Source: a virus. From it: a DNA stretch of 26,003 bases. The stretch lies in IMG/VR virus record IMGVR_UViG_3300002447_000024, positions 1 through 26,003 of that record, one strand, 5' to 3'. Below the pieces are notes generated by a model that had not been told where the DNA came from, searched no databases, and worked only from the letters and a program-made list of their open reading frames with translations. Position numbers and translations under genes: made by a program. Shown here piece by piece: positions 7,674 to 21,352 of the stretch. Position 1 is the stretch's first letter; every line of letters starts with the position of its first letter.

Positions 7674-9137
7674 TTATTTCCAATCCGTTTTTTCAATTGT
7701 AAACGGATACTTAGCTTCTTTATAAAATTTCTTTCTTTCTGTTAAATGCCGTTTAGCATATTTACAAGTACTAGTTATATCCCAGATTTGTACAAAGTCT
7801 TTGTCCTCTGCTTTTCTTATGCCGCGGCCAATGCTCTGGATAACTCGAGTAAACGACTTGCCAGACTCCAGCAGTACCAAGTTAAAGATGCGAGGAATAT
7901 TAATACCAACAGCCGCGACACCATAGGTTGCGACGATAATTTTATTAGTACTTGTTTTAATTTCATCATACTCCTCTTTCCTATCCTTAGTTTTAACTTC
8001 GCCGGACACAAAAACAGCATCTTCTATCTCATTAATTAAAAATTTACCTGAATCAATTCTATTGACCAGAACTAATGTATTGCCTGTTTGTGATATTTTT
8101 TTGACTAACTTACTGATATAAATCATCCTGTCATCGTCTGTAACAAGATATTTTAATTCATCTGAATAACTGCTAAACTCTGGTAGATCTATTAGTTGTA
8201 CAACATTAACGTGACACGTGGATAATACTCCCATGCCTTGTAATTCGTGTGCTTTAATTCCACCTACTACTGGACCAAGGCTGGCAAATATCTGCTCGCT
8301 TTCAAATTTTTCTTTAGGAACAGTACCAGTTAATCCCCAACGAATTGGAGCATTTGCTAGATTTTGTGTTAGTAAGTTCTTTAATACTTCTGCTTTGGCC
8401 ATGTGTACTTCGTCAACAATAACACACTTAACTCCGTCAAGGAATTCGGCAAGTGTTAAAATATCGTGTTCGTGATTTTTACTTTTCTTATCTAAAATGT
8501 TAAGACTTTGCCATGTACATATAGTGTGTGTCTTACCTAAATCTTTGCGATCACCGTAATACACACCAACATCTAATCCCACTGCGATAAAGTCTTCTTC
8601 TGTTTGCTCTACAAGACTTTTATTTGGTACAATAGTGATTGTGCGTCCATACTTTTCAGCTAACTGACTTAGTGTAGCTGTAGTAATAGTCTTGCCAGCA
8701 CCGGTGGCAATTTCTTGTAATGATTGTGTATTTTCAAGGAATTTATTAACAGCATCAACTTGGTAGTCACGTAGCATAATAGGCTGTCCAGCTTGTTGGT
8801 GCCCTTTAGGCCAGACTTTACCTTGGTCGGCCCAGTATGTGTCAGTTACTGGATTGAATTCAATTTTGCTAGTTGTACGTAAGTCGTCAACTTCCTCAAT
8901 TCCAATGCCTAGCTTAGTTAAAATGGTTAAAATTTGTTCTAGCTGGCTGAGGTATCCATTACCGCCAAGCCCAAATAAACTTACCATTCCATCCCAACGT
9001 CCTAACTTAAAAGCAGGATGATATCGTGCGTAAGGAATTTCATACTTAAATGTATTGGCTAATTTTTTTCGTGCGTCGAGTGGCAAATTCTCAAATTTTA
9101 TGTTTACTTCGTCTTTAATTATTAATCTTACTGCCAT
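7674..9137 (-). CDS. uvsW: UvsW-type RNA-DNA and recombination helicase
   Basis: This is a superfamily 2 helicase of 487 residues, the expected size for T4 UvsW. The N-terminal domain has the typical RYHPAFKLGRWDGMVSLF (39-55). Motif I (Walker A) is ATGAGKT (144-150), motif II is VDEVH (241-245), motif III is LTGT (269-272), and motif VI is QSIGRGIRK (434-442). In T4, UvsW unwinds R-loops and branched recombination intermediates and switches origin-dependent to recombination-dependent replication. Its start overlaps the end of the upstream 395-aa gene by 10 bases. Here it is transcribed from the promoter at 10322-10349 and so is separated from uvsX/uvsY by a terminator, which would allow separate timing. 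Confidence 0.93.
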   Translation of the reverse strand: MAVRLIIKDEVNIKFENLPLDARKKLANTFKYEIPYARYHPAFKLGRWDGMVSLFGLGGNGYLSQLEQILTILTKLGIGIEEVDDLRTTSKIEFNPVTDTYWADQGKVWPKGHQQAGQPIMLRDYQVDAVNKFLENTQSLQEIATGAGKTITTATLSQLAEKYGRTITIVPNKSLVEQTEEDFIAVGLDVGVYYGDRKDLGKTHTICTWQSLNILDKKSKNHEHDILTLAEFLDGVKCVIVDEVHMAKAEVLKNLLTQNLANAPIRWGLTGTVPKEKFESEQIFASLGPVVGGIKAHELQGMGVLSTCHVNVVQLIDLPEFSSYSDELKYLVTDDDRMIYISKLVKKISQTGNTLVLVNRIDSGKFLINEIEDAVFVSGEVKTKDRKEEYDEIKTSTNKIIVATYGVAAVGINIPRIFNLVLLESGKSFTRVIQSIGRGIRKAEDKDFVQIWDITSTCKYAKRHLTERKKFYKEAKYPFTIEKTDWK

Positions 9138-10315
9138 GCCATTCTCGCTTCTACAATAGGTTGTGTGTCTGACCAGTTAATAATTAAATCGCAACAATTC
9201 GCATACACTGACGTTTTATTATGCTGTAACAATCTTCCAACGCTAATAACACTCATTGGCTTCCAGTCGGTTTTTAGGAGAAATTTTGGTATTTTTCCAC
9301 TGGCAATTCCGACTAGCTGAGTTGTGTTATCAAGTTGCGAATTATATTTTTTATTAGCAATAAGCTGATTAAATTCTTTACCAATGCCGTCATTACCTAA
9401 TCTAAAATAAATTCCAACGCCGTCGACCATTCCATTTTTTTCCAAGATTTTTGATAAATTTGTCAATTCTTCAAGACATTTTTTTTGATCGTTACTGTCA
9501 AAAATAACCAGTAACGGAAATCTTTTCAAGACATGTAGACTATTAACAATATCAGATAACGCTGTTTCATTTTTATTAAGCCACACCTGCCGGGTGATTC
9601 TAGTGGCAATTGTTTCGGTCAAATTTTCAGGAATTTTTTCACTTTTTTCACTGAAATATTGATATCGTAAACTTCGGTCATTAATTATGTTTTGGTCAAT
9701 TGGTGTGTGTATACCAAGGTCGTTAGTTATTTGCTTTTGAAAGTTTGCGTGTGTAATAGTGTCGATTTTAAATCGACCACGCATTTCAGATTCTGTCCAT
9801 GCCTGGATAGTTTCGTAGTAATTTTGAATTTTTTGGTCAATTTCAAAGCCTAATTTTTTTAGCCTTGATACTAACGTTACAATATTCTTTTCAGTAAGAT
9901 CGGCATGATACATTTTGCCACTAATGCTAGCAGTCATGCCTGGCACCGACTTACTAATGTTAACAATTTCTTTTGTTAATGAACTAGAATATGAAATTTC
10001 CACAGTTAGTAACAGGTCATCGTTTGAGTTACTAATGTACAGTTTTTTAGTTTGCTCAAACATTCTAAAGGCTTTTGACCAACTTGGTGTTTGTAACAAT
10101 TCAATTAAATTATCATTAACTGATTTTAATTTTTCTTGATTTTCACAAAGAATTCTTAACAAGAGTTTACTTTGATTTTCAGTAAGAAAATTTGAAGATA
10201 ATACAGCCGATGCCATACTTCGTAAGATCCTAGCATCTCGTTTTGAGACTAGTTCTTCAATAGCAGTACTAGAATAATTTACAATTTGTATTAATATCTG
10301 ATCAACTGTTGTCAT
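9128..10315 (-). CDS. Conserved phage protein next to uvsW, 395 aa, unknown function
   Basis: The start chosen is the ATG at 10315 (MTTVDQILIQIV). The earlier ATG at 10330 falls between the -35 and -10 of the promoter at 10322-10349 and could not be on that transcript. The protein is helical in its first 200 residues (ARILRSMASAVLSSNFLTENQSKLLLRILCENQEKL is split by turns). It then has an alpha/beta part with strands such as FPLLVIFDS and DGVGIYFRLG, and ends with SVISVGRLLQHNKTSVYANC, a Rossmann- or RecA-like rhythm without a Walker A. Its 3' end overlaps uvsW by 10 bases. As the first gene of the uvsW unit it may act with the helicase. I do not recognise the family, and an inactive helicase-like domain is a guess. 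Confidence 0.66.
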   Translation of the reverse strand: MTTVDQILIQIVNYSSTAIEELVSKRDARILRSMASAVLSSNFLTENQSKLLLRILCENQEKLKSVNDNLIELLQTPSWSKAFRMFEQTKKLYISNSNDDLLLTVEISYSSSLTKEIVNISKSVPGMTASISGKMYHADLTEKNIVTLVSRLKKLGFEIDQKIQNYYETIQAWTESEMRGRFKIDTITHANFQKQITNDLGIHTPIDQNIINDRSLRYQYFSEKSEKIPENLTETIATRITRQVWLNKNETALSDIVNSLHVLKRFPLLVIFDSNDQKKCLEELTNLSKILEKNGMVDGVGIYFRLGNDGIGKEFNQLIANKKYNSQLDNTTQLVGIASGKIPKFLLKTDWKPMSVISVGRLLQHNKTSVYANCCDLIINWSDTQPIVEARMAWQ

Positions 10316-13369: not shown

Positions 13370-14530
13370 TTATCTTAGCCCAGCAATAGTTAACATCTTG
13401 TCCAAAAGTATTTTATCCGAACGACTCATACCTTCTTGTAATGGAGTTCCGTCTGGATTATGTGTTTGAGCATATTGTCTTGCCCACGCAAGTTTTTCTT
13501 TTGGATTAACAGGGCGCGGTTCCACAGGACGAATTCCGCCTGAAGCGGCTGGTGCTGTTACTGGTGCTGTTACTGGTGCTGCCGCTGGTGCTGCCGCTGT
13601 TACTGGTGCTGTTACTGGTGCTGTTACTGGTGCTGCCGCTGGTGCTGCCGCTGGTGCTGCCGCTGGGGCTGTTACTGGCTTTGGTCCTTGTCCTGATGCA
13701 GCTGCCGCTTTGGCAGCTCTTTCTTCAGCTTGTTTTGCTAAAAATGCTTGATTCTGTGCTTGGTATTCTGCTTGATTTTTATTACGCTTGTCAGTCAAAC
13801 TTCCAACAACAACTTCTTTTCCAGACTGTGTTGTATATACTTCTTGGCCTTTGGCATTTTTAGTTGTTGGGGCACCAGTTGGTGTCATAGTGTTTGCTCG
13901 TTGTGCTTCGAGATCGCTACGAATTTGCTGTGCCACAGTCATGTCTTTTGTAATTTCTGTTGGGTCAACTCCTCCACGTTTGATAATTGCGTTAGCAGTT
14001 TTATCATTAGTTACAGGCTGACCAGTTTTTGCATCTTTAACAGGATTTCCATTTGCGTCAAGACCGTATTCTTTCATGGCTGCTTTGGTCTGCGGTCCCA
14101 TGATTCCATCTGCTGTTATTTTTGCGCCTAGACCAATTAACTTATTTTGTAAAGTCATAACTGGGTTCGGAGCTCCTGCGGGAGGTTTTACTACTGGAGC
14201 AGTTGGGGCAGTCGGAGTAGCCGGTGGATTTGGATTTGCTGCCTGTTGCGGAGCAGCCGGTAATGGAGTTGCTACAACAGGCGTAGGTTCTGCTACAGGC
14301 GTAGCAACTGCCGCAGGTGCCGCAGGTGCTACTGGTTGAGCAACTGGCTTGCCTTTATTTGGTGCTCGAGCAAGAATATATTTGTCAGTTGGATCAGCAC
14401 CGCCTAACCATTTCTTATCTTCTGGACTCATTGTATCCCATGCTGCCGCATGTGGAGTCCCAGCAGGCCATGGATTTGTTACACCATCGGCCTCGTTAAT
14501 TAAATTAATATATTCACGCAACGTTTTCAT
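13370..14530 (-). CDS. Ala/Pro-rich protein with peptidoglycan-binding-like domain and capsid-targeting-like N-terminus, 386 aa
   Basis: The N-terminus MKTLREYINLINEAD resembles the T4 capsid-targeting sequence (MKTYQEFIAE) and contains IxE, the cleavage signal of the prohead protease. WLGGADPTDKYILAR (41-55) is shared with the next upstream protein. Residues 124-157 (VMTLQNKLIGLGAKITADGI, then MGPQTKAAMKEYG) fit a PG_binding_1 repeat. A low-complexity TAP/AAP region (285-330), encoded by 12-bp repeats, follows a charged helix (AFLAKQAEERAAKAAAA). The C-terminus (EGMSRSDKILLDKMLTIAG) also resembles its paralogue. It starts two bases after the stop of that paralogue and ends before a terminator. 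It is inferred to be an internal or virion-associated protein touching the cell wall at entry. A scaffold role is another option. Confidence 0.6.
   Translation of the reverse strand: MKTLREYINLINEADGVTNPWPAGTPHAAAWDTMSPEDKKWLGGADPTDKYILARAPNKGKPVAQPVAPAAPAAVATPVAEPTPVVATPLPAAPQQAANPNPPATPTAPTAPVVKPPAGAPNPVMTLQNKLIGLGAKITADGIMGPQTKAAMKEYGLDANGNPVKDAKTGQPVTNDKTANAIIKRGGVDPTEITKDMTVAQQIRSDLEAQRANTMTPTGAPTTKNAKGQEVYTTQSGKEVVVGSLTDKRNKNQAEYQAQNQAFLAKQAEERAAKAAAASGQGPKPVTAPAAAPAAAPAAAPVTAPVTAPVTAAAPAAAPVTAPVTAPAASGGIRPVEPRPVNPKEKLAWARQYAQTHNPDGTPLQEGMSRSDKILLDKMLTIAGLR
13551..13676. repeat. 12-bp tandem repeats (10.5 units)
   Basis: Units GGTGCTGTTACT and GGTGCTGCCGCT alternate over 126 bases, with one 6-base half unit at 13599-13604. 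They encode the TAPVTAP/AAPAAAP stretch of the 386-aa protein. All units keep the reading frame, so gain or loss of units would only change linker length. The GGTGCTGCCGCT unit also occurs in the neighbouring paralogue. Confidence 0.85.
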
Positions 14531-14532
14531 TA

Positions 14533-15474
14533 TTAACCTCTTGCTAACTGAATAATACGTGCTAGTGCTTGATCTTCTCTATACACACTTTCTGCCATAG
14601 GACTATACGGCATTCCTGTCATTGGATCACTGGCTCCCATAGTACCTGTTGCTCCGCCTGCTGGTGCCGCCTTTCCTGGTACTGCCGGAGCTGGTTTAGC
14701 ACCTTGTCCATATTGTTTCATAGCCGCTTGTGTAGCTGGGCCCATTACACCGTCTGCTTTGATCTTTGCGCCTTTTGCGATTAGATCTTGTTGTATCTTT
14801 TGCACTGCTGGGTCTGATTTAGCAGGAACTCTAGGTTTCGCTGCCTGTTGTGCCGCAGGTGCTGCCGCAGGTGCCGCTGCCGCAGGTGCCGCTGCCGCCG
14901 CTGGTTCCTCCATTCCGGCAGTTTGAGCAGCCAACATTTGTCCTTGTTGACTATCTGCGCTTACTTTTTGATCCGTTGCTTGAGGAATAGCTGGGGCCGA
15001 TGCCGCTGGTGCTGCCGCTGGTGCTGCCGCTGGGGCATTTGGTACAGCACTTCTCATTCTAGCAAGAATAAACTTATCAGTTGGGTCGGCGCCACCTAAC
15101 CATTTTAATTGTTCAGGAGTGGCTGGAGGGCCGCCATCTGCCATCTTAGCTGGAGCCGCAGCCGCTGGAGCCGCAGCCGCAGGAGCCGCCGCCGGTGCAT
15201 TAGGCGCAGCCGATGCTGGCATGCGTGTCTTATCTGCCATTGGGCTAGCAGGAGCCGCTGGTGCTGCCGCTGGTGCTGCCGCCGCTGGTGCTGCCGCCGC
15301 TGGGGGTGCGCCGCGCCAACGTGGATCGCCTGGCTCTAGTCCTGCGTTTGGATTACGTCCTGCGTCGTTTGCTGTTAAATAATCTGCTGATGCAGCAATT
15401 TGATCTGGTGTTCGTAATTCTGCCTCGTTAACAATGTCGAGATATTTTCTTAAAAGTCCGTTAAAGTTGCTCAT
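14533..15474 (-). CDS. Ala/Pro-rich paralogue with peptidoglycan-binding-like domain, 313 aa
   Basis: This protein shares its architecture with the 386-aa protein directly downstream: an N-terminal helix ending VNEAE (MSNFNGLLRKYLDIVNEAE), the motif WLGGADPTDKFILAR (125-139), and a PG_binding_1-like repeat near the C-terminus (VQKIQQDLIAKGAKIKADGV, then MGPATQAAMKQYG, 224-256). The ending (ESVYREDQALARIIQLARG) is also similar. The domain order differs in that the low-complexity AAAAPAAAP linkers come before the binding repeat. Nearly a third of the residues are Ala. AAGGAT about ten bases before the ATG is the ribosome site, and a late-like box AATAAATA ends 19 bases before the ATG. The pair looks like a tandem duplication followed by linker expansion. 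It is probably virion- or prohead-associated and expressed late. Confidence 0.6.
   Translation of the reverse strand: MSNFNGLLRKYLDIVNEAELRTPDQIAASADYLTANDAGRNPNAGLEPGDPRWRGAPPAAAAPAAAAPAAAPAAPASPMADKTRMPASAAPNAPAAAPAAAAPAAAAPAKMADGGPPATPEQLKWLGGADPTDKFILARMRSAVPNAPAAAPAAAPAASAPAIPQATDQKVSADSQQGQMLAAQTAGMEEPAAAAAPAAAAPAAAPAAQQAAKPRVPAKSDPAVQKIQQDLIAKGAKIKADGVMGPATQAAMKQYGQGAKPAPAVPGKAAPAGGATGTMGASDPMTGMPYSPMAESVYREDQALARIIQLARG
15251..15302. repeat. Ala-linker repeats of the 313-aa gene
   Basis: Near-perfect repeats of GGTGCTGCCGCT with GCC triplet insertions encode runs of AAAAPAAAP. The same unit appears near 15009-15031 and in related form around 14855-14900, and in the adjacent paralogue at 13575-13664. 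These could allow recombination between the two genes. Confidence 0.6.
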
Positions 15475-15493
15475 GGTACAGTATCCTTTTTTT

Positions 15494-15501
15494 TATTTAT
15501 T
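15494..15501 (-). promoter_or_regulatory. Late-promoter-like box before the 313-aa gene
   Basis: AATAAATA on the minus strand (7 of 8 to TATAAATA) overlaps the stop of the 840-aa gene and lies 19 bases before the ATG at 15474. An AAGGAT ribosome site sits between them. The geometry is the same as at 20861-20868. Confidence 0.45.
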
Positions 15502-18022
15502 AGTTCTTTGGCATCAATGACATAAAGTGTTTCATCATATCTTGAGGGTTAATTTGGCCACTATTGCCCGGTAGCTGAACCGGTTGGTTTGGCATTTGTC
15601 CTTGTAGCCCTTGGAATATACCCCCAATGCCTTTTTGTATTTGTTGACTCATCTTGTCCGGATCATTCATAGCATCTATCCCAAATTCTTGATCACCAAC
15701 TTTTAATTTTGCATTTTGAAATTGTTTCATCAATTGTTGTAGTTTATCAAATTGTGCGGCATCCATTGGATTATTAGTAGTATTACCGCTAGAAGATGAT
15801 GTACTAGTAACGTTTGCGCCTGGCATTGATTTCATTTGGTTGAACATCGAATCAACGTCACCACCGCCCATGCCTTTCATCATATTAGAAAAATCTGGTA
15901 CTTCTTCATCCACTGTACGATCATTATGTGACACACCGGCTAGTCGTAAAATAGCGTGGTGTTCGTGATCGGCCTTGCCTGCGCCCGGATCTTTCATATC
16001 AATAAACTTTAATACCTTAATTAAATCGTCTTCTGTTGCGCCTTCGAACATGCCATCTTCAAACGCTTTTTTCAATTTTATCTTAATACGCATTGCGCCT
16101 AACGGAAATGCTCCAGATTCTTTATCATAGAATCCGCTAATAAATTTAATCATTTCTTCAGTGCCACTTACATCTGAATCTAATCCAAACTCGGTTGGGT
16201 CCATGCCACACTCTTTAATTGCATCGTGTAATTTAATTTCTCTTGACCCTAAATCCATAGTGTGGTCGCCGGTCGCACCTTTACTAATTGCTTTATAAAT
16301 TAATGCTTTCAAACGGTCTTTTTCACCGCCCGGTTTCATTGGCTTTTTAAATGTATCCTTTGGAGCATCGTGTGGAGTATGCTTGTGCCACGGTGCGTCA
16401 TCTTCTTCACCTTCAGCAATTGGCGCTGCCGGTACTTCTGGAGGTAACGGTTCTGCTGGTGCTCCCATTGGTGGAATTGCTTCCGGTGCTGGTGGCACTT
16501 CCGGTGCTGGTGGCACTTCTGGTGCTGGTGGAGCGGCAGCTGGAGCAGGTGGTGCAGCAGGAACTTCATCTCCGCCTACTGCTCCACTATCACCGCCAAA
16601 ATCAATTAGTCCGTTTTGTAAAATTTCAGCAAGTTCTTCGTTGTCCTGTGCTAATTCTGTTAAGATAACTTCAATAGTAGTTGTTACATCTTTATCAGTA
16701 CTGTCTTTTGTAATTTGTTTTAGTTCTTCAATCTTAGCAATAAACGCAGGTAACGGTATTAACTTGGTTAACTCTTCTAGATTAATGCCAGCAACTCCGG
16801 CAGTTAATTTGTCAGCGGAAAATATTTGATTTACTTTTTTTAAGTTAGCTTGTTTAACATCTGGATTATGATCAAAAATACCTTGTCCGTATTCGTCTTG
16901 ATCATCTTCAGTTACAATTGAATTCATAAAGGATTCAAACTGCTCTTCTGGAGACTCGGATACTTTCTTTTCTTTTTTTACAACCTGTTGTGCCGGACCG
17001 CCTGCTTCATCTAACAAATCATCAAAACTTACTCCCAATACTGGCAGTTCTGATTCGTCGACAAATTTATAAATGTATGGAAATACTGCTTTTAAATCTT
17101 CGTTGAATGTACGAATTGTTAAACGATTAATTAGGTCATTACTAACTTCTTCCGGAATCATTAAATCTTCTTGTTCTTCAAATGATTCTACAAATGATTC
17201 GTAGTATGCTGGACGTTGTAACTTGTGGATAGTTTCTTTAATTTGGTCAATACGATCTAGTACACGATCAGTTACATTGCCCATTGCTTCGCTAACTTGT
17301 GCCTGACGATTAACATAACCTTTAAATTTTCGTAGACTTGCCAGTTCTTCACTTAAACTACTAATGTGTTTACCAATACTATCGTATGGAGTTCCGCCGT
17401 GTTTGATATGTTCTGCTAATGCACGAGCACCATTTAAATGTTTGTACGGATAACGGAAACGTTCGCCTTGTGCGTTCTCAATGTAAATGCTGTCAATGTG
17501 CATTGTTCTGCCAGCGGCAACATCTAAGTTGACTGGTTGACTGTGTTTAACAACTAGTCTTGCTTCGCCTAGGTCTTGATAACTCATGCGAGCGTTACCA
17601 TACATCTTATTTTCCATTATAGGAGTTTGTGGCATAACTGGTTCTTCCTTGGGCTTTGATTGGTAATGGTAGTCACGCTTGTCTAAGCTGTCCTTACCTA
17701 TATTTTGTTCATCATATTTTAATAGACGTTTCTTAGCAAATATTCTAAGACCTTTTAAAAATTCACCGCAACGTGGGTGTTTTTTATCCACTAAATCACC
17801 GGCAAGTTGTACTACAATTCCTTCATCGTCGTCGAGCGTAATTGTAATAGTTCCTAATGATTCACCGTTTTCTTTGTATTCGAATTCAAAGAATCGACCC
17901 TGGTTCATTTCTTTTTTTCTGGTAATGACATCCCCGGATTCGTTTCCAACTTGTATGTTAGGAAAGCGGGTTTGTATTTTACCGTAGAGGTCGAGCGCAA
18001 TTTTGTCTAAATTAGATTCCAT
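15500..18022 (-). CDS. Large conserved phage protein, 840 aa, unknown function (possibly virion-associated)
   Basis: The start chosen is the ATG at 18022 (MESNLDKIALDLYGKIQ). A TTG start at 18052 would overlap terminase by 20 bases. The first 115 residues form a beta-rich domain (FFEFEYKENGESLGTITITL, IVVQLAGDLVDKKHPRCGEF). About residues 155-205 form another small domain (RLVVKHSQPVNLDVAAGRTM, ENAQGERFRYPYKHLNGARA). Coiled helices follow, then acidic linkers. A Pro/Ala/Glu linker with PPAPEV repeats lies at about 480-535. The C-terminal part is rich in Met, Gln and Asn (FNQMKSMPGANV, PNQPVQLPGNSGQINPQDMM). The modular layout, in the run from the terminase to the Ala/Pro-rich paralogues, suggests a structural or internal head protein. 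I recognise no catalytic motif. No Shine-Dalgarno is visible, but a TAAATA box is four bases before the ATG. Confidence 0.68.
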   Translation of the reverse strand: MESNLDKIALDLYGKIQTRFPNIQVGNESGDVITRKKEMNQGRFFEFEYKENGESLGTITITLDDDEGIVVQLAGDLVDKKHPRCGEFLKGLRIFAKKRLLKYDEQNIGKDSLDKRDYHYQSKPKEEPVMPQTPIMENKMYGNARMSYQDLGEARLVVKHSQPVNLDVAAGRTMHIDSIYIENAQGERFRYPYKHLNGARALAEHIKHGGTPYDSIGKHISSLSEELASLRKFKGYVNRQAQVSEAMGNVTDRVLDRIDQIKETIHKLQRPAYYESFVESFEEQEDLMIPEEVSNDLINRLTIRTFNEDLKAVFPYIYKFVDESELPVLGVSFDDLLDEAGGPAQQVVKKEKKVSESPEEQFESFMNSIVTEDDQDEYGQGIFDHNPDVKQANLKKVNQIFSADKLTAGVAGINLEELTKLIPLPAFIAKIEELKQITKDSTDKDVTTTIEVILTELAQDNEELAEILQNGLIDFGGDSGAVGGDEVPAAPPAPAAAPPAPEVPPAPEVPPAPEAIPPMGAPAEPLPPEVPAAPIAEGEEDDAPWHKHTPHDAPKDTFKKPMKPGGEKDRLKALIYKAISKGATGDHTMDLGSREIKLHDAIKECGMDPTEFGLDSDVSGTEEMIKFISGFYDKESGAFPLGAMRIKIKLKKAFEDGMFEGATEDDLIKVLKFIDMKDPGAGKADHEHHAILRLAGVSHNDRTVDEEVPDFSNMMKGMGGGDVDSMFNQMKSMPGANVTSTSSSSGNTTNNPMDAAQFDKLQQLMKQFQNAKLKVGDQEFGIDAMNDPDKMSQQIQKGIGGIFQGLQGQMPNQPVQLPGNSGQINPQDMMKHFMSLMPKN
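16483..16533. repeat. 18-bp tandem repeat (about 2.8 units)
   Basis: The unit CCGGTGCTGGTGGCACTT occurs at 16483-16500 and 16501-16518, followed by a partial variant. It encodes the PPAPEV repeats in the Pro-rich linker of the 840-aa protein and keeps the frame. Confidence 0.75.
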
Positions 18023-18026
18023 AGTA

Positions 18027-18034
18027 TATTTATC
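18027..18034 (-). promoter_or_regulatory. Late-like -10 box directly before the 840-aa gene
   Basis: GATAAATA on the minus strand (7 of 8) stands four bases from the ATG at 18022, which has no Shine-Dalgarno. If active, transcription would start at the ATG. It overlaps the terminase stop codon, so it may be chance in AT-rich sequence. Confidence 0.3.
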
Positions 18035-19628
18035 AGATGTTTGAGGAAACAAATATAGGCAAGGGTGCTTGCCAATCTTCGTCTAGTGAGGATTCTATGG
18101 CAAGTTTAGCAAATACCGCAGGATCCCAATCTGCTAGTACTACAGTCATGCGTACAATTAGTAGTAACGCTGACACTAAATCGTCGTGTTGTCCAGTTTT
18201 TGCTTTATATGTTACGCCCGCTGCAATAAATGTTTTTAGTTCACTTAGCAATGCTTTACTGTTAATCTTCATTTGATCTTGTTCAATAAAGTATTTTAAG
18301 CGGCTACATGCTGATATTTTACTACCGTGTGTAGTGTTAAATCCTTTACGGAATTTACGCACATGACCTTTTTTAACTGGTTCGCTAAGGAATAATCCCG
18401 GGAATGTGTCTTCGCCTAAGTTTGCAATTACTACTAGTGCGGCTTCGCCTAATGTGTTATTTTCTACACTCCAGTAGATGCTGTTGGAGTAATCTTGGCT
18501 TATTTCGTCCTGGATATATCTAATTACATCTCTAAAAATTTTAACTTGATCCTGTATAATAGTTAAGTTGTGTTGCCACTCTGCTACCTGTATCATACTA
18601 GGCAATTCAAATACTTGTATACCTGCGTAGTCGCCGCCCGTACCTAAACTAGGATCTAACCCTACCAAATAAGTATTACCGGGAGTTGGCTTTTTATACC
18701 AACGCACTTGCCCCATCTTAAATTGTGGTTCTTTGCCCATCATCTCTGCTAGCTTAATACTGTTGATAAGTGTTTCGTCAAAAACTAAAAACTCGCAGCC
18801 GTACTCTCGACGGAAACGTTCTTCACCAATACGCCCCATTTCAACAGACTTCCATTTGTCGTCTCGATCCGGATGTTCGTGCCATTCTGCTCTAAATCCG
18901 TGGAACCCGTTGCGTCCTAAGTTGTCCTCGCGTTCACTGCCAAACTCGTCAAATTTATCTTGTGACTCTTTCCAAATATTAGCAAATGTATCTTCGTCTG
19001 AGTTTGGCGTACTTGTTATAATTGCACGTCCACCAGTTGCTAGTGTCGGGGATATTGAAGTCCAAAACTCAGTGGCGATATTTGGTTGAACGAATGCAAA
19101 CTCATCGCAATACAGTAGGGAAATTGACATACCACGACCAGTGTTGCCAGTTGTAGTAGCCGATACAATTCTTGATCCATTATCAAACTCCATTGACCCT
19201 TTGTTATAGTTTACAACACCGCTACGAATATAATCAGGGCATAATTCATATCCGTATCTAATACGCTGCATAATTTCCTGCGAGCCTGTATATTTGTGTG
19301 CGGCAACTAGAATAGTTTGATCTGGGTGAAACATAGCAAACCAAAGCAGATATGCTGACGCACAAGTAGTCTTGCCACTTTGACGCGGCAGCATGTTTAC
19401 ATTAAAACGATAATCGTGATAACTGTGTAGTAACCCTTCTTGATATTCAAAAGGTTGAAATAACATCTTGCCTTTAACAGGATGCTGTATATAAAAGAAA
19501 TGTTTAGCAAAATATAAGTAACCGGTTTCGGGGTCGGCGCAGGCCAGCAGATCTTTAATCTGCTCTTCTGTGAACCGTTCAGTAGTATGCGCTTTTTTGG
19601 TTAAGACGCCGTCAAGTGATTTTGCCAT
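18033..19628 (-). CDS. 17: Terminase large subunit gp17 (packaging ATPase and nuclease)
   Basis: This 531-residue DNA-packaging motor subunit docks at the portal, translocates DNA with ATP and cuts the concatemer. The ATPase domain has NMLPRQSGKTTCAS with Walker A at 81-88, LLYCDEFAF with Walker B and the catalytic Glu at 171-179, and the coupling motif IITSTPNSDED (203-213). The RNase H-like nuclease domain shows Asp325 (VGLDPSLG), Glu389 (WSVENNTLGEA) and Asp482/483 (GQHDDLVSALLL). Length is slightly below T4 gp17 (610 aa), with a shorter N-terminus. A UUCG terminator lies before it. There is no Shine-Dalgarno, but a TGTAAATA box is five bases from the ATG. It is not followed by gp18 as in T4 but by the 840-aa gene. 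Confidence 0.95.
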   Translation of the reverse strand: MAKSLDGVLTKKAHTTERFTEEQIKDLLACADPETGYLYFAKHFFYIQHPVKGKMLFQPFEYQEGLLHSYHDYRFNVNMLPRQSGKTTCASAYLLWFAMFHPDQTILVAAHKYTGSQEIMQRIRYGYELCPDYIRSGVVNYNKGSMEFDNGSRIVSATTTGNTGRGMSISLLYCDEFAFVQPNIATEFWTSISPTLATGGRAIITSTPNSDEDTFANIWKESQDKFDEFGSEREDNLGRNGFHGFRAEWHEHPDRDDKWKSVEMGRIGEERFRREYGCEFLVFDETLINSIKLAEMMGKEPQFKMGQVRWYKKPTPGNTYLVGLDPSLGTGGDYAGIQVFELPSMIQVAEWQHNLTIIQDQVKIFRDVIRYIQDEISQDYSNSIYWSVENNTLGEAALVVIANLGEDTFPGLFLSEPVKKGHVRKFRKGFNTTHGSKISACSRLKYFIEQDQMKINSKALLSELKTFIAAGVTYKAKTGQHDDLVSALLLIVRMTVVLADWDPAVFAKLAIESSLDEDWQAPLPIFVSSNI

Positions 19629-19633
19629 ATGTT

Positions 19634-19641
19634 TATTTACA
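19634..19641 (-). promoter_or_regulatory. Late-like -10 box directly before gene 17
   Basis: TGTAAATA on the minus strand (7 of 8 to TATAAATA) ends five bases before the ATG at 19628 and lies just past the terminator at 19643-19669. No ribosome site is visible. The predicted start point coincides with the ATG, as at 23170-23177. Confidence 0.4.
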
Positions 19642-19642
19642 T

Positions 19643-19669
19643 AAAAAAAGCACCCCGAAGAGTGCTTTT
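19643..19669 (-). terminator. Intrinsic terminator with UUCG tetraloop
   Basis: On the minus strand AAAAGCACTC-TTCG-GGGTGCTTTT forms a 10-bp stem with one G-U pair and a very stable UUCG loop (19646-19669), followed by a run of seven T (19643-19649). It lies 20 bases past the stop of the upstream gene and insulates gene 17 from the gp4/gp16 group. Confidence 0.85.
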
Positions 19670-19689
19670 GATAATGCTGTTAAGGAGTA

Positions 19690-20232
19690 TTAACGGCCTT
19701 TAACATCTGCGTAATGTGCGGCTAGTTGTTTAACTAACCCTTCGTGCATGTGCGGATTGCCTATAGGCAATCCAGCTTGGCGTGGACGATGATCGCCGCT
19801 GTTTGGAGGCGTTCCGACGTTAATGACGTCATTAATGTCTAATGTTATTTGGTCAGGATTGTTTGTAGATGCGTTAAATCCGGCACCCACATCTTCTTCA
19901 TACGATTCTTCAGGTTCTCCAATTAAAATGTCGTGTTCGCTATCGTGTGAGTGTTGCGGTTCGCTTTCTGGTCCGTCTTGAATATCTTTTAATACATTCA
20001 ATAAGTCACGGATACCACCTGCGCCGCTACCGTTCATACTAACGTTCATTGTTACTGAATCGCTTTGTTTTGGAGCAGCCATACGAGACGGTGGCATCAT
20101 ATCCATTCCACATTCTTCAACCGATACTTCAGTAGATGCTTCTGGAGGAACTGCGCCGTCTACCGGTTCAGTCATGACTACATCGCTTTCGTCAAGCTGT
20201 TTCATCTTTGCTAATAAATCTTGAAAGTTCAT
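19690..20232 (-). CDS. Acidic protein with capsid-targeting-like N-terminus, 180 aa
   Basis: The start is taken at 20232 (MNFQDLLAKMKQLDESD), one base after the stop of the 202-aa gene (TAA-T-ATG), with AAGGAAA as ribosome site. A longer frame to 20274 has no ribosome site. The N-terminal amphipathic helix ends in LDE-S, an LxE pattern that fits the cleavage signal of T4-type prohead proteases. The body is acidic and low in complexity, with EVSVEECGMDMMPP, a Met/Asn/Gly segment, a His-rich stretch (PQHSHDSEHD) and NPDQITLDINDVINVG. The C-terminus PHMHEGLVKQLAAHYADVKG is a short helix. No catalytic motif is visible. It is inferred to be an internal or scaffold-type head protein and is followed by a terminator. 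Confidence 0.62.
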   Translation of the reverse strand: MNFQDLLAKMKQLDESDVVMTEPVDGAVPPEASTEVSVEECGMDMMPPSRMAAPKQSDSVTMNVSMNGSGAGGIRDLLNVLKDIQDGPESEPQHSHDSEHDILIGEPEESYEEDVGAGFNASTNNPDQITLDINDVINVGTPPNSGDHRPRQAGLPIGNPHMHEGLVKQLAAHYADVKGR

Positions 20233-20233
20233 A

Positions 20234-20842
20234 TTATTTTCCTTTTCTTGGATCTGGATTTGAAACCTTACCAAGCGGGCTCTTCGCAGGTGCTACTTTA
20301 TCTGCCTTGACTGTTTTTTCACTCGGAGTTTTCTTTGCTAAAATCTTTTCGTTAACACCTTTGTATTGTGTTAGCTTCTTTGTATGTGAGCCTAATTCTT
20401 TAAGTAAACTCATTACTTGCTTATCGCCAACTAATTTTTGACCATCTACATCTTCTAATGGTTTTTCTAATAATGATTCGCCAGTTGGTTTATCGTTAGC
20501 ATGATTTAATGCTTCTTCGTCTTGTTCTAGTAAATTGCGTACTTTAATTTTAGCAAGAGCAACACTACAGTAGTCAGCTACTAAATCACGAATTTGTAAA
20601 CTAGTTGCTGGATATGCTGTAGTAATATCATATACTGTAACTTCAACATTCTTTTGATCTGGGAAGTCGACTTGTGTTTCTTGAATAGGGGTGCTTTTAC
20701 CTGCTGAGCATGATTCAACTTTAAATTGAGATAATGCTTGCTTGATCTTAGTAGCGCAGTCTTTTGGACAGTCGCCGGCAATTTTTACTTTAAATTCGTA
20801 AACTTGTTTGCCTTCTATAACGTATTGTTTAAATGATTTCAT
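20234..20842 (-). CDS. Conserved phage protein with capsid-targeting-like N-terminus, 202 aa
   Basis: The first ten residues, MKSFKQYVIE, align without gaps to the T4 capsid-targeting sequence MKTYQEFIAE, with conservative changes at most positions and the final Glu kept. The rest has a compact alpha/beta domain of about 110 residues (VYEFKVKIAGDCPKDCATKI, VEVTVYDITTAYPATSLQIR, YCSVALAKIKVRN) in a ferredoxin-like rhythm. A linker (GESLLEKPLEDVDGQKLVGD) and a long basic Lys/Pro tail (AKKTPSEKTVKADKVAPAK) follow. The basic tail would suit DNA inside the head. GGGA about eight bases before the ATG and a late-like box 18 bases upstream support this start. Function is unknown, and an internal head protein is the best inference. 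Confidence 0.65.
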   Translation of the reverse strand: MKSFKQYVIEGKQVYEFKVKIAGDCPKDCATKIKQALSQFKVESCSAGKSTPIQETQVDFPDQKNVEVTVYDITTAYPATSLQIRDLVADYCSVALAKIKVRNLLEQDEEALNHANDKPTGESLLEKPLEDVDGQKLVGDKQVMSLLKELGSHTKKLTQYKGVNEKILAKKTPSEKTVKADKVAPAKSPLGKVSNPDPRKGK

Positions 20843-20860: not shown

Positions 20861-20868
20861 TATTTATT
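20861..20868 (-). promoter_or_regulatory. Late-promoter-like box before the 202-aa gene
   Basis: AATAAATA on the minus strand (7 of 8) overlaps the end of gene 16 and lies 18 bases before the ATG at 20842, with GGGA between them. The leader geometry is the same as at 15494-15501 and 2714-2721. Confidence 0.42.
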
Positions 20869-21352
20869 TCATATTCTTTAATCTTTCGATCAAACTGTTG
20901 CGATCTGCTACAATAAAGCCATCACCCTGTATATTAACACTATTGTCTTCTTGATTAGCATCTTGATCAAGTTTAGCTTTCTTTAGCTGTAGTTCGATCA
21001 TTTTAAGTTTTTTATCAATTTTAGCGGCTTTAGCGTCAATGGCGTTTTTAAGCATACCGCCGGCAACTTCAAAAATACGTCCGCTGTAACGTGCTTCTAC
21101 ATTCATACCTAAGTCCATTAAATCGTCATAGGCATCTGTAGCACGTTGAGCAAGTGCGTCAAACTCTGAATCTGCAGCATCACCTAGTCCCTTGACTGCG
21201 GGCAAACTAGCTGAAATTTTGTCAAATTCTTCCATACTGCGTAAAAACGTATCGGGTTTTTCGCCAGCAGTTTTTTGTTTCTTTTTTTCTTCTGCCTTAA
21301 TAAGTTCTTTACTAGCAGGCAAATTCAAAAGTTCTTCAAGTTTTTTAGTCAT
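20864..21352 (-). CDS. 16: Terminase small subunit gp16
   Basis: This 162-residue helical protein is the size of T4 gp16 (164 aa). The core DALAQRATDAYDDLMDLGMN, then EARYSGRIFEVAGGMLKNAIDAKAAKI (about 66-115), followed by a Lys-rich coiled coil (KKLKMIELQLKKAKLDQ), matches the central oligomerisation coiled coils of T4-type small terminases. gp16 forms rings that recognise the concatemer and stimulate gp17. The N-terminus is charged and probably flexible, and the C-terminus (GFIVADRNSLIERLKNMK) is a short helix. The ribosome site GGAG lies at the end of the gp4 gene, seven bases separate stop and start, and gene 17 follows two genes later. Confidence 0.78.
   Translation of the reverse strand: MTKKLEELLNLPASKELIKAEEKKKQKTAGEKPDTFLRSMEEFDKISASLPAVKGLGDAADSEFDALAQRATDAYDDLMDLGMNVEARYSGRIFEVAGGMLKNAIDAKAAKIDKKLKMIELQLKKAKLDQDANQEDNSVNIQGDGFIVADRNSLIERLKNMK

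Follow-up and report, generated by a model that had tools for sequence, protein, structure and literature searches.

The closest described system is that of the phage T4 internal proteins IPI, IPII, IPIII and Alt, which carry short N-terminal leaders (10-19 residues in T4-type proteins; PMC9026906) and are cut by gp21. In IPIII, the main determinants of targeting to the head are residues 4 and 7, those of processing are residues 8 and 10, and Asp at position 10 blocks processing and leaves targeting intact (PMC9026906). Alt is processed at both ends, and it has already been proposed in general terms that the targeting sequence could serve T4-like phages for loading a variety of proteins (PMC9026906). 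In phage P1 an N-terminal packaging signal on DarB is likewise enough to direct a reporter into the head (PMC9024508), although P1 is of a different lineage from the jumbo group considered here and the likeness is drawn at the level of description. The substrates of phiKZ-like prohead proteases (SPN3US gp245; PMC10052503) likewise lose N-terminal propeptides from packaged head proteins, but the cut motif is A-x-E, the propeptides are mostly much longer and phiKZ has no excess of [LI]xE (see below).

T4-like cyanophages provide a further comparison. Enzymes (NMNAT/cytidylyltransferase, APH/ChoK-like kinase, SAM hydrolase and Cas9-like nuclease) are associated with the virions of S-SCSM1, S-CREM2 and S-CRM01, and several of them carry a leader of this kind: MKSFLQFLKE, MKNFSSFLTE, MKRFDAFLTE, MKDFDSFLEE and MISFDQFLSE, and RFASFMAE at residues 17-24 of the Cas9-like nuclease. 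These differ from the proteins described here in being enzymes. The available parts of the cyanophage papers leave open whether such enzymes are packaged or contaminants and do not name a targeting sequence. Within the literature that we searched, leader loading seems not to have been extended before to the cargo of cyanophages and jumbo phages.

The sequence analysed here (the window) is a whole IMG/VR virus record, a 26 kb fragment of 26,003 bases. No near nucleotide relatives of it were found in the phage collection. The terminase large subunit TerL (18033..19628, minus strand), which we use as a landmark, shares 54% identity with its counterparts in the Pseudomonas jumbo phages PA5oct, MIJ3 and Paride and about 45% with those in CBB and Serratia BF, and the window is therefore placed in this T4-superfamily jumbo group. 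On the minus strand the genes run in the order tail tube, gp4-like closure gene, terminase-small-like (TerS-like) gene (20864-21352), pF, pE, TerL, pC, pB, pA and single-strand binding protein, the last assigned by similarity to annotated relatives. The order around TerL is repeated in a 356 kb relative, G001, and in outline in MIJ3. The gene adjoining TerL, pC (15500..18052, minus strand), belongs to a virion structural protein family (phrog_13484); a start at 18022 (MESNLDK) is likelier than one at 18052. The T4 late promoter TATAAATA occurs once in the window against three expected, so there is no promoter support.

The first-pass annotation had singled out four proteins, here labelled pA (13370..14530), pB (14533..15474), pE (19690..20232) and pF (20234..20842). 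All four open reading frames are present on the minus strand with the N-termini given there. They had been described as lying near terminase and head genes; TerL and the TerS-like gene do adjoin them, but a gp20-gp24 head cluster is absent from the window, which does include genes for tail and connector proteins. We consider it likely that the four are leader-tagged head cargo of a T4-superfamily jumbo phage. Packaging is well supported by data from related phages, with pF the firmest part, and cleavage is probable, judging from the sequences, where the Glu is present. In this phage the leaders, amphipathic N-terminal stretches 10 to 17 residues long, would dock the cargo into the prohead scaffolding core, and a gp21-type protease would then cut behind the terminal Glu and set the cargo free within the head.

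The leaders are 10 (pF), 13 (pA), 15 (pE) and 17 (pB) residues long and each ends in Glu. A literal (L/I)xE site is found only in pA (INE) and pE (LDE); pF (VIE) and pB (VNE) have Val at P3. Hydrophobic or aromatic residues occupy positions 4 and 7 in three of the four (pF; pA, L4/Y7; pB, F4/L7), and in pE the register is shifted. Features in common with the T4 internal proteins are a leader length within 10-19 residues, the hydrophobic or aromatic character of residues 4 and 7 in these three, an (L/I)xE site that is literal in two of the four and, in relatives, a gp21-type protease. Unlike in T4, the cargo is unrelated, the genes adjoin the terminase, leader length varies, Val stands at P3 in two leaders, processing is lost in some orthologues and pA and pB bear extra C-terminal tags.

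pA (386 aa) and pB (313 aa) are both Ala/Pro-rich and are related, sharing a peptidoglycan-binding domain and a WLGGADPTDK segment, so that the window holds three independent families, not four. The domain lies at 14066..14167 in pA (residues 122-155) and, as a PG_binding_1-like match with an E-value of 4.7e-4 that falls below the Pfam cut-off, at 14710..14814 in pB (residues 221-255; both minus strand). The pA leader MKTLREYINLINE (14492..14530, minus strand; predicted cut after Glu13) has relatives MKSLREYINIIKE, MKTLRDYIDLVNE and MKTLREYIEIVNE. Its first eight residues, MKTLREYI, are in register with T4 MKTYQEFI and the cut site is three residues further along. The pB leader MSNFNGLLRKYLDIVNE (15424..15474, minus strand; predicted cut after Glu17) has relatives MSQFNGLLRKYIDMVNE and MSQFNGLLRKYIDLVSE. 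In relatives within the group the pA/pB slot is often taken by a single gene whose N-terminus is of this type (LREYI.LVNE or MKKITESQLKxRVNxLREYLxxxE), and in one relative (L007) pB and pA are fused as a single 656-residue open reading frame. The slot proteins have a variable middle, with PG_binding_1 in 13 and LysM in three of 25, followed by a conserved C-terminal helix, ExVxxxDxxLxRIVxLA.

In pB this helix is SVYREDQALARIIQLARG (14536..14589, minus strand), which follows MAE; the corresponding pA tag, GMSRSDKILLDKMLTIAGLR (13373..13432, minus strand), follows LQE and is similar to the C-terminus of the scaffold gp22. Almost all distinct gp22 C-termini (78/79) end in LAG-type helices, for example DIRRLAGLK. 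Unrelated proteins also have LAG-type C-termini: 16 of 33 pC homologues, the window's own pA (LDKMLTIAGLR) and, in G001, a protein of 268 residues. In G001 the tag ends three proteins against 0.019 expected, a number that none of 2000 controls attains. The processing of T4 Alt at both of its ends (PMC9026906) provides a precedent for a C-terminal tag. The C-terminal tags on pA and pB had been missed in the earlier annotation.

We infer that the slot acts as a cargo site and that pA and pB probably carry peptidoglycan-binding cargo plus a second, C-terminal tag; capsid targeting of the pair is plausible. Alternatively, pA and pB, and these two only, could be peptidoglycan-binding lysis or tail proteins whose N-terminal likeness is unrelated to head loading. 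PG_binding or LysM domains among the slot proteins and a family match to endolysins are in keeping with this. Against it, a catalytic domain was not found in pA or pB, tags at both termini flank the variable middle, and the pA C-terminal tag resembles that of gp22, with Alt as the T4 parallel. We therefore consider a lysis or tail role somewhat unlikely.

pF (202 aa; phrog_14802, virion structural protein) has a ferredoxin-like domain behind the leader MKSFKQYVIE (20813..20842, minus strand; predicted cut after Glu10), which aligns residue for residue with T4 MKTYQEFIAE; an orthologue form is MKSFKEYLTE. Comparison of N-termini across related phages bears out the leader, its register being kept in 51 distinct orthologues. 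Tyr7, Phe/Tyr/Leu at residue 4 and Leu/Val/Ile at residue 8 are present in all 51, P3 is Leu in 44 (Leu or Ile in 47), and residue 10 is Glu in 49 and Asp in two (MKSFTAYLTD). There is thus less variation at the targeting residues 4 and 7 than at residue 10, needed for processing, in line with what the T4 mutant data predict (PMC9026906), and by sequence the Asp10 orthologues are a natural counterpart of the T4 Asp10 mutant. In the more distant pF of MIJ3 and PA5oct (MKSFRDYYDA) and of Phosso (MKNFYEYLSS), residues 4 and 7 are kept and Glu10 is lost, and the PA5oct protein carries a virion mass spectrometry note. Targeting and cutting are thus separable in the pF family. The idea that pF is always processed was dropped given these and the Asp10 orthologues. 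Taken together, the T4 register, the conservation and the PA5oct orthologue make capsid targeting of pF well supported.

pE (180 aa) is a low-complexity protein without a family match, and a protein search with it in the phage collection gave no match. Its leader is MNFQDLLAKMKQLDE (20188..20232, minus strand; predicted cut after Glu15). Among 52 distinct pE N-termini, [LI][DE]E is kept in 43, and directly after it the sequences diverge and change in length. Capsid targeting of pE is supported.

In the group's major capsid protein, more than 60 distinct sequences carry YLxE with S, T or A as the next residue and P2 free (KYLxE↓S, the arrow marking the predicted cut). This matches EYLTE↓S of pF, so that these phages have the same site in two unrelated proteins. 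The matching capsid protein site is absent from the first-pass annotation. That annotation had looked to a gp21 homologue for support; a gp21-type (S77) protease was not found within the 26 kb window, but one is present in the long relatives G001-G004, MIJ3, Phosso and Atu_ph07.

Published virion data are available for several related phages. The PA5oct record has ESI-MS/MS notes on the pF counterpart EST35_0202 and on EST35_0203, the pE counterpart in the same slot. Homologues of pC are virion proteins in CBB and PA5oct (in the latter by ESI-MS/MS note). Of five leader genes selected in MIJ3, four have a marked gene at the corresponding position in PA5oct (EST35_0237, 0238, 0380 and 0381); EST35_0380 and 0381 are marked among mostly unmarked neighbours. 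The fifth, EST35_0271, which has a leader-like start, and a further leader-like open reading frame, EST35_0382 (64 aa), have no MS note in the PA5oct record. Genes similar to SSB and RecA are also marked, and an MS mark in PA5oct is therefore not proof of packaging.

In cyanophage S-CREM2, 52 proteins were found in virions (PMC10665884) and the test set was 221 annotated features. A 10-residue pattern at gene starts, tuned with knowledge of the S-CREM2 proteins, picks out five genes and no others, namely ORF6 (SAM hydrolase), ORF13, ORF14 (kinase), ORF136 and ORF154 (cytidylyltransferase), and each of them is on the virion list (p 6.2e-4). With the earlier pattern, left unchanged, all six matches are virion proteins (Fisher p 2.5e-4), two of which look like chance. 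For S-SCSM1 one of two matches is in the virion (NMNAT, MKSFLQFLKE), which is not significant alone (p 0.31). The S-CRM01 kinase starts MISFDQFLSE and is cited as a virion protein. In RaK2, CBB, PA5oct and S-CAM4 the cytidylyltransferase homologues lack a leader of this kind and begin with the catalytic domain; that of PA5oct has no MS note, although both of its neighbours are marked. Overall, most proteins with such leaders in related phages with published virion data occur in the particle.

These data also bear on a second alternative, in which the proteins are lasting structural components (of the neck, portal vertex or inner shell) that dock through their N-terminal helices; these would never be cut, the Glu being part of an interface. 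Residues 11-24 of pF are conserved as strongly as the leader, so the leader could belong to the fold. Additionally, the outgroup pF orthologues keep the helix without the Glu, that of PA5oct being still in virions, and the genes adjoin the terminase. However, the conserved P4-P1' pattern is that of the capsid protein's site, pE sequences diverge right behind the Glu and the same type of leader is found on unrelated enzymes in virions. An AlphaFold2 model of pF (mean pLDDT 68.8) places the leader apart from the fold, as a short separate helix of lower confidence (block mean 65) before a compact domain at about residues 15-103. In fold searches with pF, all PDB matches were of a generic ferredoxin-like kind and had low TM-scores, and all matches in the viral set were uncharacterised phage proteins, one of them from Atu_ph07. 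We regard permanent docking as unlikely and prefer leader-tagged cargo. The separability of targeting and cutting nonetheless limits the earlier claim of a set of packaged, processed internal head proteins. Targeting stands (well supported for pF, supported for pE, plausible for pA and pB), but processing has evidently been lost in some orthologues (MKSFTAYLTD, MKSFRDYYDA and MKNFYEYLSS).

By chance, [LI]xE ends at residues 6-18 in about 11% of proteins, so a single match carries little weight and four N-termini picked by eye prove little. In G001 (335 proteins) there are 65 such cases against 36.8 expected (1.76x, p 1.7e-5), and neither [LI]xD nor [VA]xE is in excess at these positions. [LI]xE is likewise enriched at residues 6-18 in a second relative, G009 (1.54x), and in T4, the positive control (1.60x). 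It is also enriched in G002 (2.14x), where, as in MIJ3, a control motif is enriched alongside it. It is not enriched in phiKZ, the negative control (0.98x), and P-SSM2 gives 1.23x, which is not significant. What lifts the leaders above chance is their conservation across orthologues, which carries the case. A chance origin, for which it could be said that hydrophobic N-termini with a Glu are common, is highly improbable given that conservation, the controlled positional enrichment and the association with virion lists. Frequent strict 10-residue T4-like leaders in these jumbo phages were considered and rejected; there is one convincing case per genome (pF) and none in MIJ3, and the other leaders differ in length.

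More tentatively, short leaders (MKxFxxFLxE, MRxxEFxxxE↓A and related forms), together with the scaffold-like LAG tags at the C-termini of jumbo-phage proteins, may make up a general code by which the T4 superfamily loads cargo. Such a code, which we see as a real possibility, would be readable from sequence and would predict head-packed and probably injected enzymes (SAM hydrolase, kinases, NMNAT-like proteins, Cas9-like nuclease and peptidoglycan hydrolases). Among the proteins listed in cyanophage and jumbo-phage virion proteomes are enzymes for which the authors could not distinguish packaging from contamination. A readable leader would tell packaged cargo from contaminants, would list candidate injected effectors of uncultured T4-like phages from sequence alone and would allow a direct test of the earlier proposal that T4-like phages use the targeting sequence as a general means of loading.

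Finally, the same leader class is found on many more genes in relatives, which the first-pass annotation had missed. In G001 a peptidoglycan-hydrolase cassette carries MRFTEFKLVLKE↓N on a gene with LysM and Phage_lysozyme2 domains, MRAKDFILFE↓R (Glyco_hydro_19), MRAKEFLILE↓A (PG_binding and M23) and MRATEFITE↓G (DUF6321). The cassette recurs in L300-L305, where the leader is kept on consecutive unrelated genes and is lost once.

The C-terminal helix of the prohead scaffold protein gp22 has the form LxxIxxLAG[LIM] in 78 of 79 distinct sequences (the gp22 genes of relatives, loci L114-L193). Unrelated head-region proteins also end in a helix of this type (at 24105-26798 and 310032-310838 in the 356 kb relative G001, and at 13373-13432 in the window). 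It is possible that this C-terminal helix is a second loading tag.

Another C-terminal sequence, SPVxKxKRNxYG[VI], is common to leader-bearing proteins that otherwise differ (169308-170411 and 334320-334703 in G001; 146497-147792 in the further relative G002), and two of these proteins contain a nucleotidyltransferase-like GRFNPPHxGH motif. In the peptidoglycan-hydrolase cassette of M23, GH19 and LysM-lysozyme genes (G001 326747-335350, locus L101; and L300-L305), unrelated neighbouring genes have the start MR[AFI]xEFxxxE/A in common (slash, predicted cut).

In the cyanophage S-CREM2 (OR473000), the Cas9-like nuclease ORF12 (7704-10313), which has been detected in the virion, has a leader-like RFASFMAE/A at residues 17-24, and its C-terminal residues are TFRDFLN. 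The 69-residue virion protein SSCSM1_93 of S-SCSM1 (MK867354, 91626-91835) carries the leader-like KKRTFKEFLEYIE at its C-terminus, not its N-terminus.

Within the window, the TTG start listed for the structural protein gene pC (15500-18052) runs into the terminase gene TerL. Orthologues that begin MDANLDK point to the ATG at 18022 (MESNLDK) as the more likely start. In the relative L007 (14185-16152), the related peptidoglycan-binding proteins pB and pA appear to be joined in one ORF of 656 residues.
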